From assembly GCF_003073135.1 (NCBI RefSeq), contig NZ_PGDQ01000005.1, forward strand, positions 248,001 to 312,000: a stretch of DNA of 64,000 nt. The letters are read 5' to 3'. The position numbers and the translations under genes are program-made. The notes beneath the pieces are model-generated. The model ran no database searches, was not told the origin of the DNA, and saw nothing but the letters and a program-made list of their open reading frames with translations. Shown piece after piece: positions 438 to 9,384 of the stretch; positions within the stretch are counted from its first letter, which is position 1; each line of letters begins with the position of its first letter. This DNA is from Euzebya rosea. Lineage in GTDB: Bacteria; Actinomycetota; Nitriliruptoria; Euzebyales; Euzebyaceae.

Positions 438-1346
438 ATGAGCACCTTCGTATCCAGCAAGGGCAACGGCCCGCCGTTCCAGGGCCGATCCAGCGGCCCC
501 ATCAGGGCCCGCTGCGAGGTCCTGCAGTACCGCAAGATCGGCAAGTACCACTCGATCACGTTCGTCTCCCCCGAGATGGCCGATCGGGCAGAGCCCGGCA
601 TGTTCGTGACCATCGGGGTGGAGGGGCACTCCACGGTGCTCCGCCGGCCGTTCGCGATCTACCAGGTCAGCCGCCACGGTCCCTGGGCCGGCACCGTCGA
701 GATCGTCTTCGACGTCGTCGGCGAGGGCACCCGCTGGCTGGCCTCGCGCGTCAAGCACGACACCGTCGACCTGGTCGGCCCCCTCGGCACCCCGTTCCCG
801 CTGCCCAAGCAGAACGTCGGCTGCCTGCTCGTCGGCCAGGGATACGGGGCCGCCCCGCTCCTGTACCTCGCCGGGGTCCTGCAGCAGCGGGGCTTCCGCG
901 CCGACATGATCATCGGGGCCAAGGACGCCGACGGCATCTTCAACGCCATCGAGGCCAAGCGCCTGTCCGCCACCACCATCCTCGTGACCGAGGACGGGTC
1001 GCTGGGGGAGGAGGGCAACATCCTCGACGTGATGGACCGCCACCTGGACCTCGGCCGGACCGGGCTGATCTACGCCTCCGGGCCGATGCCGCTGCTGCGG
1101 GACGTGTCGGAGCTGGCCGCCAGCCGCGGCGTGCCCATCCGGGTTGCCGTCGAGGAGGCCATGGCCTGCGGCACCGGCGTCTGCTGGACCTGCGTGATGC
1201 CCGTCGAGCGAAAGGGTGCGGTCTACAACCTGCGGTCGTGCATCGAGGGACCGGTCTTCAACGGCGCCAAGGTCCAGTGGGACGCCATCGGTGCGCTGCC
1301 TGTCCACGACATCCCCGAGCCGCTGCCCGAGGAGGACGAGGCGTGA
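438..1346 (+). CDS. pyrK: Dihydroorotate dehydrogenase electron-transfer subunit PyrK
   Basis: A 302-residue flavoprotein that passes electrons from dihydroorotate, through PyrD, to NAD+. It reads as an N-terminal FAD-binding barrel (LRRPFAIYQV near residue 75), an NAD-binding Rossmann part (GQGYGAAPLLYLA near 137) and a C-terminal [2Fe-2S] site with cysteines in MACGTGVCWTC and RSCIEGPVF (about 240-275). PyrK marks the class 1B type of dihydroorotate dehydrogenase. Best-known actinobacteria (Mycobacterium, Streptomyces) use the quinone-linked class 2 enzyme instead. The start ATG is 75 bp after carB. The stop overlaps the pyrD GTG start in a GTGA, so translation is probably coupled. Confidence 0.93.
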   Translation: MSTFVSSKGNGPPFQGRSSGPIRARCEVLQYRKIGKYHSITFVSPEMADRAEPGMFVTIGVEGHSTVLRRPFAIYQVSRHGPWAGTVEIVFDVVGEGTRWLASRVKHDTVDLVGPLGTPFPLPKQNVGCLLVGQGYGAAPLLYLAGVLQQRGFRADMIIGAKDADGIFNAIEAKRLSATTILVTEDGSLGEEGNILDVMDRHLDLGRTGLIYASGPMPLLRDVSELAASRGVPIRVAVEEAMACGTGVCWTCVMPVERKGAVYNLRSCIEGPVFNGAKVQWDAIGALPVHDIPEPLPEEDEA

Positions 1347-2311
1347 GCACCGTCCCGTCGTCCCGCAAGCCCCGCTCGGTCACCGTCACCCCCGCCGAGG
1401 TGGACCTCCGCGTCCAGCTCGACGACATGATCCTGCGCAACCCGATCCTGGCGGCCAGCGGCACGTTCGCGTCCGGGCAGGAGATCAACCGGTTCTTCGA
1501 CGTGAACCGCCTGGGTGCGGTGGTCATCAAGTCCATCACGATGGAACCCCGTCCGGGCCTGCCGACACCGCGCATGGCCGAGACCGCCAGCGGCATGCTC
1601 AACGCCATCGGCCTGCAGAACGCCGGGGTGGAGCGGTGGCTGTCGCTGGACTACCCGTGGCTGGTCCACCACGGCGTGCCGATCATCGCCTCCATCGCGG
1701 GGCGGACCGTCCACGAGTACCGGCAGGTCGCCGAGAAGCTGCGTGGCCTTGAGGGGATCGTGGCCATCGAGGCCAACATCTCCTCGCCCAACGCCGAAGC
1801 GGGCGGCGGACTGTTCGCCTCCCACCCCTCCACCGCCGCCGAGGTCGTCTCGACGATCATGCGCGTGGCCACCGTGCCGGTCTTCGCCAAGCTGACCCCC
1901 GACGTCACCGACATCGTGACCATCGCCCACGCCGCCGCCGAGGCCGGCGCCTCCGGCGTGTCGGTCATCAACACGGTGCTCGGCATGGCCATCGACGTCG
2001 AGACCCGCCAGCCCAAGCTCGCCGCCGGCATGGGTGGCCTGTCGGGCCCGGCGATCAAGCCGATCGCCATCCGCGCGGTGCACCAGATCCACTCCGTCAT
2101 GCCCGACCTGCCGATCATCGGCATGGGCGGTGCGGCGACGGTCGAGGACGTCGTGGAGTTCATGCTCGCCGGCGCCAGCGCCGTCGCCATCGGCACCGCC
2201 ACCTTCGCCAACCCCATGGCGTCGATGGAGATCGTCGAGGGCCTTCCGCACTGGCTGGCCGAACGCGGCATCCGCCACGCCCGCTCCCTCATCGGCGGCG
2301 TGCGCATCTGA
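1343..2311 (+). CDS. pyrD: Dihydroorotate dehydrogenase, class 1B-like catalytic subunit
   Basis: A 322-residue FMN barrel enzyme that oxidises dihydroorotate to orotate. The GTG start at 1343 overlaps the pyrK stop. Family motifs are NPILAASGTF near residue 33, VIKSIT, INTVLGMAIDVETRQP, GGLSGPAIKPIAIR and IIGMGGAATVEDVVEF. These are the class 1B signature, in line with the adjacent pyrK. One residue is unexpected: the loop that usually reads NxSCPN in class 1 enzymes reads NISSPNAEAGG, so the catalytic base would be Ser, as in class 2 enzymes, instead of Cys. The enzyme is cytosolic and acts as a complex with PyrK. Confidence 0.93.
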   Translation: MSTVPSSRKPRSVTVTPAEVDLRVQLDDMILRNPILAASGTFASGQEINRFFDVNRLGAVVIKSITMEPRPGLPTPRMAETASGMLNAIGLQNAGVERWLSLDYPWLVHHGVPIIASIAGRTVHEYRQVAEKLRGLEGIVAIEANISSPNAEAGGGLFASHPSTAAEVVSTIMRVATVPVFAKLTPDVTDIVTIAHAAAEAGASGVSVINTVLGMAIDVETRQPKLAAGMGGLSGPAIKPIAIRAVHQIHSVMPDLPIIGMGGAATVEDVVEFMLAGASAVAIGTATFANPMASMEIVEGLPHWLAERGIRHARSLIGGVRI

Positions 2312-2347: not shown

Positions 2348-2617
2348 TCAGCCCTCGAGCACCGGCGGACCGATGACCGACTCGATGATCGCCCTGACCT
2401 CGCCGGGTTCGGCGTGGCGTCCGGTGGCGTGCTTGGAGTAGACGAGATCACCGTCCAGCGTCACGTCGAACACGCCCTTGTCGCCGGGGATCAAGCGGAC
2501 GTCGGCGAACAGCGGCGCCCAGCCCTCCAACACCTCTGCCGTCAGACCGACGGCGCGTGGGATGTAGTTTCAGGGAACGCAGAACTCGATGAGCAGTTCG
2601 TGACGGGGGTCGAGCAT
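2348..2617 (-). CDS. SelW/Rdx-family selenoprotein with in-frame UGA (CVPU motif)
   Basis: An 89-residue thioredoxin-fold protein of the SelT/SelW/SelH (Rdx) family. Reading from ATG 2617 gives an N-terminus ending in IEFCVP, then TGA at 2572-2570, then NYIPRAVGL and the rest of the Rdx fold (VLEGWAPLFADVRLIPG, GVFDVTLDG, SKHATGRHAEPGEV). The TGA sits exactly where the family has the second residue of its CxxC/CxxU redox motif, so it is read here as selenocysteine 16. A hairpin follows 15 nt later: a 6-bp GCCGTC/GACGGC stem with loop GGTCT, the apical loop type of bacterial SECIS elements. A -10 box TACACT lies 6 nt before the ATG, which supports this start. Gene callers that treat TGA as stop would report only the downstream 61 codons. 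The protein is probably a small glutathione- or thiol-linked oxidoreductase. selA/B/C are not in this window. Confidence 0.85.
2538..2554 (-). promoter_or_regulatory. Candidate bacterial SECIS hairpin
   Basis: On the minus-strand mRNA, 15 nt after the UGA, GCCGTC (2554-2549) pairs perfectly with GACGGC (2543-2538) around loop GGTCT. The loop has the G-U pair of bases that SelB recognises in known bacterial SECIS loops such as E. coli fdhF. The distance from the UGA to the loop is about 3 nt longer than in fdhF. The lower stem is weak (CAC/GTG across an internal loop). Confidence 0.7.
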
Positions 2618-2693: not shown

Positions 2694-4904
2694 ATGAGCC
2701 GAACCCTGCGAGTCCTCCTCGTCGTGCTGTCGTTGCTGACCGCCGCGTTGCCCGCCACCGCCCTGCCCGCCCCCGTGGCGGTCGACGGGCCCGTCGCCGA
2801 CGTCGCGGGTGCAGCAGGGCTCGGGGTCTGTGACGACTCCGACGGCCGCCACTGCCTGCTGCCGTTCCCCAACGACCACTTCACCGTCGAGGACCGCTCG
2901 ATGGTCACCGGTCAGCGGGTCGACCTGTCGATCCTTGCCATGCCGCAGAACGTGGCCGGCAAGCCGATCGACCCGACGGAGTACAACCGCAACGACGGCT
3001 TCTCGCCCGGCCAGCCAGCCGTGACGTTCGTGCCCGGCCTGGACCTGGCCGCCACGTGGCGGGCCGTCCTGGGTGACGACGCGGCCGCCACGACCGTCGA
3101 CGATCCCGCCCGGTCGCTGCACGTTGACGCGCCGATCGTCGTCATCGACGCCGACACCGGCGAGCGGCACCCGTTCTTCGACGAGCTGGACCACAACGCC
3201 CACACCGGCGAGGACGAGCGCAGCCTGATCATCCGCCCGGCGATCAACTACACCGAGGGTCACCGCTACGTGATCGGCCTGCGGAACCTCCGCGACGACT
3301 CGGGGGCACCGCTGCCGGCCGGGGATGCGTTCGCCAGCTACCTGGCAGGGGAGGGGGCGCAGGCCGACAAGCAGGCACACCTGTCCAGCGACGTGCTGCC
3401 GGTGCTCGAGGCGGCCGGGGTCGACACCGACGAGCTGTACCTCGCGTGGGACTTCACCGTGGCGTCGTGGCAGAACCTTGCCGGCCGGATGCTGCACATC
3501 CGCGACGAGGCGTTCGCCCAGCTGGGCGACTTCGACCTCGAGGACCTGCAGGTCGAGGGGGTCGCACCGACGTTCACCATCGACTACGTCGACACGGCTG
3601 ACGGCAACTCCGACCGGGTCGTGCACGGTGCGGTGACGGTGCCGAACTTCCTCCAGCTGCCGCAGGACCCGGTCGACCCGGGCCGCATGGACCGCGATGG
3701 CCACGACGTCCCGATGCAGCAGGTGCCGGGCAGCCGGTTCGTGTACCTCGACGGTGACGACCTGCCCGACATCAACCCGGTCGCGCCGACGATGCAGATC
3801 CCGTTCGTGTGCGCCATCCCGACCACTGCGGTCGGCGAGGACGGGCTGGTCACCGACCCGGCGCGGATGGCGCTGTACGGCCACGGCCTGCTCGGCCAGC
3901 GGATCGAGGGGGCCTACTGGTCCGGCGGTCGCCACATGCTCAGCCACCAGAACACGATGAACTGCGGCGTCGACTGGATCGGCATGGCCCAGGAGGACCT
4001 GGCCAACGTCGCGATGATCCTGTCGGACGGCTCGAACATGGGCAGCCTCGCCGACCGCGGCCAGCAGGGGTTCCTCGGCTTCATGATGGTCGGCCGGGCC
4101 ATGCTGCACCCCGACGGGTTCGCGACCGACCCGGCGTTCCAGGACGCCGCCGGCCAGCCGCTGATGGACACCTCCGTCCTGACCTACGACGGCAACAGCC
4201 AGGGCGCGATCATGGGTGGTGCGCTGACGGCCGTCGCGCCGGACTTCACCAACGCCGTGCTGGGCGTGCCCGGCATGAACTACTCCACGCTGCTGAACCG
4301 GTCGGTGGACTGGGAGGGCGAGCTGTTCGACCCGGGGGAGCCCGGCCTGCCCGCCTACTCCCAGGTGATGTACCAGTCGTATCCGGACGCCGTGGAGCAG
4401 CAGATCGTCTTCTCCCTCATCCAGATGTTGTGGGACCGCTCGGAATCCAACGGCTACGCCCACCACATGACCGACAACCCCTACCCCAACACCCCCGCCC
4501 ACCGGGTGCTGCTGCACGTCGCCTACGGTGACTTCCAGGTCGCCAACCTCGCGGCGGAGGTGCAGGCCCGCACCGTCGGGGCGGCGGTGCTGGAGACGGC
4601 GCTTGCCGACGGCCGGCACTGGGCGCGCGACCCGTTCTTCGGGCTGGAGACGTTCGAGGGGTCCCACGAGGGGTCGGCGCTCGTCTACATGGACTCGGGC
4701 AACCTGGTCCCGCCGAGCGGCAACGTCCCCCCTGCCCACGAGGGCTCCGACCCCCACGGCCACCCCCGCAACGACGTCCCCGGCGGCGAGCAGAAGGCCA
4801 CGTTCCTCGACACCGGCGTCGTGGTCGACACCCGCGACGGCGCCGCGTGGTGGACCGACCGCTGCCCCGCCCAGACTGCCGTGCCGGTCGCCTGCGGCTC
4901 GTAG
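2694..4904 (+). CDS. Secreted alpha/beta-hydrolase-like protein, function unknown
   Basis: A 736-residue exported protein. The N-terminus (MSRTLRVLLVVLSLLTAALP, then ATALPAP) is a Sec signal peptide with a likely AxA cleavage site, which favours ATG 2694 over the GTG 39 nt upstream. The mature part has a Cys-containing start (GVCDDSDGRHCLLPFPND), a long beta-rich region, then a segment resembling an alpha/beta-hydrolase core: YGHGLLGQ near residue 398 (possible oxyanion turn) and YDGNSQGAIMGG with a nucleophile-elbow-like Ser at about 502. Histidines near the C-terminus could complete a triad, but the acid and base cannot be assigned by eye. No membrane anchor follows. The gene stands alone between the selenoprotein gene and a terminator-like hairpin. 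A secreted esterase, lipase or peptidase are all possible. Confidence 0.75.
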   Translation: MSRTLRVLLVVLSLLTAALPATALPAPVAVDGPVADVAGAAGLGVCDDSDGRHCLLPFPNDHFTVEDRSMVTGQRVDLSILAMPQNVAGKPIDPTEYNRNDGFSPGQPAVTFVPGLDLAATWRAVLGDDAAATTVDDPARSLHVDAPIVVIDADTGERHPFFDELDHNAHTGEDERSLIIRPAINYTEGHRYVIGLRNLRDDSGAPLPAGDAFASYLAGEGAQADKQAHLSSDVLPVLEAAGVDTDELYLAWDFTVASWQNLAGRMLHIRDEAFAQLGDFDLEDLQVEGVAPTFTIDYVDTADGNSDRVVHGAVTVPNFLQLPQDPVDPGRMDRDGHDVPMQQVPGSRFVYLDGDDLPDINPVAPTMQIPFVCAIPTTAVGEDGLVTDPARMALYGHGLLGQRIEGAYWSGGRHMLSHQNTMNCGVDWIGMAQEDLANVAMILSDGSNMGSLADRGQQGFLGFMMVGRAMLHPDGFATDPAFQDAAGQPLMDTSVLTYDGNSQGAIMGGALTAVAPDFTNAVLGVPGMNYSTLLNRSVDWEGELFDPGEPGLPAYSQVMYQSYPDAVEQQIVFSLIQMLWDRSESNGYAHHMTDNPYPNTPAHRVLLHVAYGDFQVANLAAEVQARTVGAAVLETALADGRHWARDPFFGLETFEGSHEGSALVYMDSGNLVPPSGNVPPAHEGSDPHGHPRNDVPGGEQKATFLDTGVVVDTRDGAAWWTDRCPAQTAVPVACGS

Positions 4905-5247: not shown

Positions 5248-5916
5248 CTAGAGGGAGGCGACGATGTCGCGGGCGGCCTCGGCGGGGTCGGTGGCGCGGG
5301 TGATCGGGCGGCCGACGACGAGGTGGCTGGCACCGGCGGCAAGAGCCTCGGCGGGGGTGGCCACGCGGGCCTGGTCGTCGGTGGCCGATCCGGCCGGGCG
5401 GATGCCGGGGACGACGACGAGCGGGTCGATGCCGATGGCGCCACGGACGGCCTCGACCTCGGAGGGGGCACACACGATCCCGGCGGCACCGGCGTCGATG
5501 GCCAGCTTGGCAAGGCGGGGGACCTGCTCGTCGACCGGGCGCTGCCCGACGGCGGTCATGTCGTCATCGTCAAGAGAGGTCAGGACGGTCACCGCGAGGA
5601 TGGCCACGTCAGGGGCGGCCTTGGCGGCGGCCTCGATCATCCGGGGGCCGCCGCTGGCGTGCACGGTCAGCATCGTCACACCCAGGTCGGCGACCGCGCC
5701 GGCGGCACCGGCGACGGTGTTGGGGATGTCGTGCAGCTTGAGGTCGAGGAAGACCGGCCCGCGTTCGACGACGGCACGGACGAGGGAGGGGCCGCTGGCC
5801 GTGAACGCCTGGAGGCCGACCTTCAACAGTCCGCACTCGGGGGCCAGCTGGTCGGCCCAGGCCACGACCCGGTCGGCGTCGGCGCTGTCCAGCGCGGCGA
5901 TCAGGGGGTTGCTCAC
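5248..5916 (-). CDS. pyrF: Orotidine 5'-phosphate decarboxylase
   Basis: A 222-residue barrel enzyme that decarboxylates OMP to UMP, the last step of UMP synthesis. It starts SNPLIAALDSADAD and carries the catalytic DxKxxDI motif as FLDLKLHDIPNTV near residue 60. The C-terminal phosphate-binding part reads VVPGIRPAGSATDDQ and SHLVVGRPITRA. I chose GTG 5916 because a GGAGG-type ribosome site lies just before it and the reading frame upstream of it has no family similarity. In most actinobacteria pyrF follows pyrD on the same strand. Here it is inverted and separated from pyrD by about 2.9 kb of unrelated genes. Confidence 0.93.
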   Translation of the reverse strand: MSNPLIAALDSADADRVVAWADQLAPECGLLKVGLQAFTASGPSLVRAVVERGPVFLDLKLHDIPNTVAGAAGAVADLGVTMLTVHASGGPRMIEAAAKAAPDVAILAVTVLTSLDDDDMTAVGQRPVDEQVPRLAKLAIDAGAAGIVCAPSEVEAVRGAIGIDPLVVVPGIRPAGSATDDQARVATPAEALAAGASHLVVGRPITRATDPAEAARDIVASL

Positions 5917-6061
5917 GGGGTTCCTCCGGGGGTCGTTGGAGGCCACCACCGCCTGTGGCGACCCCGCCAACGATACGCCCGACGCGGATGCCCCGACCCC
6001 GGACCACCGGCCGGGTCGCGTGCGCCGACGATCGAGGCCCCGCCCCGCGCAGCCCCTTGGG

Positions 6062-8792: not shown

Positions 8793-8837
8793 CCGCTCGC
8801 CGGCCATCCTCGACGGGCGATCCGTGGCTGCATCCCG

Positions 8838-8843
8838 TAGGCT
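8838..8843 (+). promoter_or_regulatory. -10 element of pyrE
   Basis: TAGGCT lies 10 nt before pyrE ATG 8854. Transcription would start 3-4 nt before the codon, so there is no room for a Shine-Dalgarno site. Confidence 0.45.
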
Positions 8844-8853
8844 GCCTGCCCCC

Positions 8854-9384
8854 ATGGAACGCCACGACCTCGCCCGCGCCATCTTCGACGCCGCCCACCT
8901 GACCGGGGAGTTCGTCCTCCGGTCGGGCGCCACCTCCAACGAGTACTTCGACAAGTACCTGTTCGAGGCCGACCCGGTGCTGCTGCGCGAGATCGCCGAG
9001 CACCTCGCCCCCTCCATCCCCGAGGGCACCGAGGTGCTGGCCGGCCTCGAGCTCGGTGGCGTCCCGATCGCCGTGGCGCTCAGCCAGGTCACCGGCCTGC
9101 CCACCCTCTTCGTCCGCAAGGAAGCCAAGTCCTACGGCACCGCCAAGCTGGCCGAGGGCGGGACGATCGGCGGACGGCGCATCACCGTCGTCGAGGACGT
9201 CGTGACCTCGGGTGGGCAGGTCATCCTCTCCTGCGCTGACCTGCGGGAACGCGGGGCGGACATCCTCGGGGTGCTCTGCGTCATCGACCGGCAGGCCGGC
9301 GGCCCCGAGAAGCTGGCCGAGCATGACCTGGCCCTCTCGCCGCTGTTCACCATGGACGAGCTCAAGGCGTCCCAGCAGGCCTGA
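8854..9384 (+). CDS. pyrE: Orotate phosphoribosyltransferase
   Basis: A 176-residue type I phosphoribosyltransferase that joins orotate and PRPP to give OMP, the substrate of PyrF. The N-terminus is MERHDLARAIFDAAHLTGEF, then the substrate loop RSGATSNEYFDKYLFEADP. The flexible catalytic loop is VRKEAKSYGTAKLAEG near 90. The PRPP motif VVEDVVTSGGQV is near 115. An in-frame start 30 nt upstream exists but would overlap the -10 box, so ATG 8854 is preferred. The gene follows the divergent MarR-GNAT gene and precedes mihF, on the same strand as the downstream housekeeping genes. Confidence 0.93.
   Translation: MERHDLARAIFDAAHLTGEFVLRSGATSNEYFDKYLFEADPVLLREIAEHLAPSIPEGTEVLAGLELGGVPIAVALSQVTGLPTLFVRKEAKSYGTAKLAEGGTIGGRRITVVEDVVTSGGQVILSCADLRERGADILGVLCVIDRQAGGPEKLAEHDLALSPLFTMDELKASQQA

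Follow-up and report, generated by a model that had tools for sequence, protein, structure and literature searches.

An in-frame TGA as the predicted selenocysteine codon of a SelW-like (Rdx) gene with a probable leaderless-type promoter in Euzebya rosea

Introduction

SelW-like proteins are the most abundant selenoprotein family in the Sargasso Sea and GOS marine data (PMC1088965, PMC2398784) and are present in Actinobacteria, as that group was then defined (PMC1794560); the molecular role of the bacterial members has been described as unclear (PMC1088965, PMC1794560, PMC2398784). Published limits for bacterial SECIS elements are a loop of 3–9 nt, a stem of 4–16 bp, a G within the first two loop bases, a distance of 16–37 nt from the UGA and a minimum free energy of at most −7.5 (PMC13188914). 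In high-G+C Actinobacteria, a TANNNT motif about 12 bp upstream of the start is the signature of leaderless genes (PMC3160421). Here we analyze a SelW/Rdx-family gene in a window of 64,000 nucleotides from E. rosea (contig NZ_PGDQ01000005.1), the whole stretch of DNA to which the coordinates below refer. The gene looks broken by a stop codon but is almost certainly intact, the TGA being read as selenocysteine (Sec).

Results

The reading frame encodes a SelW-like protein

The features of the locus are as follows.

2348 to 2617, minus strand: predicted SelW/Rdx-family selenoprotein gene, stop included, 89 aa with Sec at residue 16 (CVPU); from read-through translation, Pfam Rdx, TIGR02174 and the fold model
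2629 to 2624, minus strand: TACACT, −10 box of the predicted leaderless promoter, starting 12 nt and ending 6 nt before the ATG; from TANNNT conservation
2617 to 2615, minus strand: ATG start codon, read from the sequence
2581 to 2579, minus strand: TGC, Cys13, read from the sequence
2572 to 2570, minus strand: in-frame TGA as predicted Sec codon (codon 16), second redox position of CxxU; every relative that has the motif carries a TGA or Cys codon here
2554 to 2538, minus strand: predicted bacterial SECIS hairpin GCCGTC-GGTCT-GACGGC, loop 21 nt past the TGA; 6 bp, 5-nt loop, −9.5 kcal/mol, and comparison of copies
2350 to 2348, minus strand: terminal stop TGA, read from the sequence

A sequence-only reading of this DNA had placed the TGA at the second position of a CxxC/CxxU motif, in a frame that is unbroken afterwards, and this is what we observed on the minus strand from 2617 to 2348. 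The read-through protein is MLDPRHELLIEFCVPUNYIPRAVGLTAEVLEGWAPLFADVRLIPGDKGVFDVTLDGDLVYSKHATGRHAEPGEVRAIIESVIGPPVLEG, where U stands for the TGA at 2572–2570. Mechanical ORF calling, which allows no read-through, lists only a 61-aa ORF starting with GTG (2533–2348), as had been anticipated for standard annotation. The read-through protein scored 60.8 bits against Pfam Rdx (PF10262; cut-off 22.6), matching profile positions 3–73 of 74, and 45.3 bits against TIGR02174 CXXU_selWTH (cut-off 34.2), which places it in the SelW/Rdx family above the curated cut-off across the whole domain. Consistent with this assignment, phmmer matches in the PDB were SelW-related proteins or their relatives, and the closest folds to the AlphaFold2 model of the read-through protein (mean pLDDT 89.9) were SelW-related, with TM-scores of 0.78–0.83 and 27–32% identity to 2fa8, 2obk and 3dex. 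The model places C13–U16 between the first strand (6–13) and the first helix (19–36) of a thioredoxin-like fold; taken together, the CxxU motif and the modelled fold point to a probable redox role.

Pyrimidine genes surround the locus (window 438–2311, 5248–5970 and 8824–9384) and encode a dihydroorotate dehydrogenase electron-transfer subunit, dihydroorotate dehydrogenase, orotidine-phosphate decarboxylase and a phosphoribosyltransferase; the dihydroorotate dehydrogenase gene is convergent with the selenoprotein gene. A divergent gene at 2697–4904 encodes a protein of 735 aa, which has a signal-like N-terminus and matched no Pfam family, and the start of this gene also adjoins the Rdx copy of a congener (L010).

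A putative −10 box is conserved next to the start codon

The leaderless promoter had been proposed from a single TACACT, and position-specific conservation now supports it. Of the 57 copies, 34 have a TANNNT box separated from the start by a gap of 6–8, whereas each offset further upstream holds 0.29 such boxes on average; the TACACT of the window copy has the published leaderless position, about 12 bp upstream, at an offset enriched across the family. No Shine-Dalgarno-like motif was found upstream of this copy. A Sec gene with a leadered mRNA, transcribed from further upstream with TACACT as a coincidence, would suit four copies that carry a Shine-Dalgarno-like stretch and no TANNNT box (L034, L035, L038 and L041); for the gene studied here we regard it as unlikely, given the near absence of the box at other offsets and the lack of such a stretch upstream of the window copy. 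With the leaderless promoter that we favor, the 5′ end of the mRNA would lie at or next to the AUG, and the UGA would occupy nt 46–48.

The TGA column and the downstream frame are conserved

The alignment of Rdx homologues that had been proposed as a check revealed a TGA or a Cys codon at the column in all relatives read. In a class sample of 66 genomes, 15 had an Rdx match. Exactly one TGA, located at the Sec/Cys column, was present in all but one of them (14 of 15); the exception, G060, reads CVPC. All 13 further loci from public genomes, mostly Acidimicrobiia-like, with one labelled Anaerolineae and one Acidobacteria, encoded CxxU with a TGA. In a phylum sample of 396 genomes, 55 had an Rdx match and 39 of the 56 matches held one TGA, while Cys copies came mainly from a few families with large genomes (CTQC, CTRC; L071–L080), together with a few isolated cases. 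A selA match was present in 35 of 39 genomes with a Sec copy versus 4 of 15 with a Cys copy, counting copies whose motif was covered (p = 1.3e-5, relatedness ignored). Four genomes with a Sec-type Rdx gene had no selA match (G074, G130, G228 and G286); these are drafts, 68–98% complete, and gaps in them are the likeliest explanation. A scan of viral contigs found no relative.

Compared with the congener copy L010, dN was 0.06 and dS 0.23 over the 73 codons after the TGA, and dN was 0 over the 15 codons before it, which indicates, at the level of sequence comparison, that purifying selection acts on the frame downstream of the TGA. Random substitutions and frameshifts after the TGA in congeners, which would have spoken against a Sec gene, were not what we found: L010 keeps the TGA, the frame and all 17 bases of the hairpin, and its changes are mostly at third positions. 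The Rdx gene of a second congener, G003 (L011 1499–1762), is Acidimicrobiia-like: its N-terminus is shorter and its hairpin, at +17, has the loop CGTGC. This type suggests gene replacement within the genus; judged from it, the Rdx copies in one genus are not all simple orthologues, or one has been replaced. In a third congener, G002, a 110-contig draft, the Sec machinery was present and no Rdx match was found.

The hairpin accompanies the TGA

The hairpin itself agreed with its earlier description, that is, a perfect 6-bp stem with the loop GGTCT at 2554–2538, exactly 15 nt after the TGA (−9.5 kcal/mol folded alone), and the loop was rightly assigned to the E. coli type, since GGTCT is also found in E. 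coli fdhF. It satisfies all of the published bacterial SECIS limits with its 6 bp, GGTCT loop, distance of 21 nt and −9.5 kcal/mol (PMC13188914). The sequence-only reading counted the TGA, the hairpin and the promoter box as three independent signals; all three features are present, but treating the lone hairpin as independent evidence was an overstatement, because amino-acid constraint and high G+C often yield similar stems. The fold energy of the single sequence was ordinary (z = +0.34 for 66 nt and −0.88 for 42 nt), synonymous recoding produced six pairs at the hairpin register in 19% of draws, and Rfam scans of the whole window and of 2300–2700 returned nothing relevant. Considering the ordinary fold energy and these draws, the hairpin persuades only through comparison, and the comparison across copies is decisive for it.

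This comparison covered 57 copies (42 Sec and 15 Cys) and two fixed registers, GGTCT at +21 or CGTGN at +17. A hairpin in either register was found in 41 of 42 Sec copies versus 2 of 15 Cys copies (p = 6e-10, with relatedness among sequences ignored and the registers defined on the same data as used for the test). The loop was at +21 in 26 Sec copies (24 GGTCT, 2 AGTTT) and at +17 in 15 (CGTGA, CGTGC or CGTGG); the sole Sec copy outside this strict count, L064, has AGTCT at +21 and an interrupted stem. Pair 2 of the +21-class stem was T-A, T-G or C-G, and never C-A, and pair 3 of the +17-class stem was C-G, T-G or T-A. The loop glycine codon was GGT in all 13 copies of the first set, whereas elsewhere in these genes GGC outnumbered GGT by 106 to 37. 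In family f6, two of the copies read (L085 and L091) are Cys copies with TGT, and the others are Sec copies. In L085 and L091, GCCGTCGGTCTGACGG gives way to GCCCTCGGCCTGATCG and the hairpin has decayed, while the TANNNT promoter box is retained; the hairpin therefore goes with the TGA rather than with the promoter.

The genome encodes a complete Sec system and a second selenoprotein

Genes for selA, selB, selC and selD had been predicted elsewhere in this genome, and its search (5.5 Mb, 40 contigs) found all of them, so that an absence of selB or tRNA-Sec, which would have argued against Sec, does not arise. The tRNA-Sec gene lies at C6:152701–152792 (65 bits) and is also called by ARAGORN as tRNA-SeC with anticodon tca; selB (308.7 bits, with the SelB winged-helix domain) and selA (449.7 bits) are on C9, and selD (381.9 bits, without an in-frame stop) is on C2. 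A formate dehydrogenase alpha chain (fdhA, L067; G000:C15 ~71744–71890, minus strand) is a second selenoprotein of this genome; it contains the sequence ENQARIU-HSSTVPGLGTS, in which the TGA is followed by CGTCCCC-GGTCT-GGGGACG, a 7-bp stem with its loop at +18 (TGA-18 nt-GGTCT). The GGTCT apical loop is thus common to two genes for unrelated proteins, on stems of different sequence.

A frame interrupted by one TGA only, from which ORF calling yields a remnant, might also be a pseudogene, that is, an Rdx gene cut short by mutation of TGC to TGA and either untranslated or reduced to 61 residues. This is very improbable, as tens of genera share the TGA at this catalytic column, the codons after it are under purifying selection, the hairpin is tied to the TGA and the genome contains a full Sec system; the pseudogene reading was rejected on the conservation data. 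Rejected on the same data, and more improbable still, is decoding of the TGA as Cys or Trp, whether by an altered code or by leaky read-through, which the Cys found at the column in some relatives might suggest, since TGA serves as a stop in this genome, including the Rdx gene's own end at 2350–2348, a dedicated tRNA-Sec(TCA) and SelB are present, and the conserved hairpin would be left unexplained.

Discussion

We are highly confident that this is a functional SelW-like (Rdx) selenoprotein gene with a leaderless transcript, whose UGA at codon 16 would be decoded as Sec via the GGUCU hairpin. Its transcription start, Sec insertion and redox role are what we infer from sequence. Ribosomes would reach the UGA at codon 16, SelB with Sec-tRNA-Sec would bind the GGUCU-loop hairpin 21 nt downstream, and Sec would be inserted without termination. 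In the resulting 89-residue thioredoxin-like product, the CVPU pair would most likely act as a thiol/selenol oxidoreductase, cycling via a Cys-Sec bond.

Ordinary gene calling reduces this predicted redox protein to 61 residues and so removes its active site, which read-through restores; many Actinomycetota genomes are likely to be affected in the same way. The predicted leaderless start raises a testable question, namely how recoding of an early UGA proceeds when the mRNA has no 5′ leader, and the pairs of Sec and Cys copies with and without the hairpin, together with the two SECIS registers, form a ready comparative set for SelB recognition. More broadly, we lean towards the view that SelW selenoproteins of Actinomycetota are made predominantly from leaderless mRNAs, with the UGA about 30–50 nt from the 5′ end, and that two SECIS registers are in use among them (GGUCU at +21 and CGUGN at +17), even in a single genus, which would require the SelB of related hosts to accept both.

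With the E. coli fdhF SECIS, the Rdx gene shares the apical loop GGTCT, which is located 18 nt after the TGA in fdhF and in fdhA of this genome, versus 21 nt in the Rdx gene. In the fdhF element, the 5′ strand of the stem contains an additional U, whereas the stem of the Rdx gene is an uninterrupted 6 bp. The bulged U in the SECIS stem matters for E. coli SelB, and its lack in the Rdx gene counts against the Sec reading. The solved SelW-related structures (2fa8, 2obk and 3dex) are alike in fold and come from other bacteria; the Cys copies read in Actinomycetota carry CTQC or CTRC. A literature search, with most subscription papers outside it, found no paper on leaderless selenoprotein genes in bacteria, and within similarly incomplete coverage none was found on a leaderless-type promoter or two SECIS registers for SelW-like genes. 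The SelW-like family is long known and abundant in bacteria, and the Rdx gene is a further member, like the others in its N-terminal CxxU, its length of about 90 residues, its Rdx domain and a SECIS right after the UGA. By contrast, its clade adds a conserved leaderless-type promoter and its homologues use two SECIS registers; these alternative registers, and a Sec gene predicted to be transcribed without a leader, would be mildly new.
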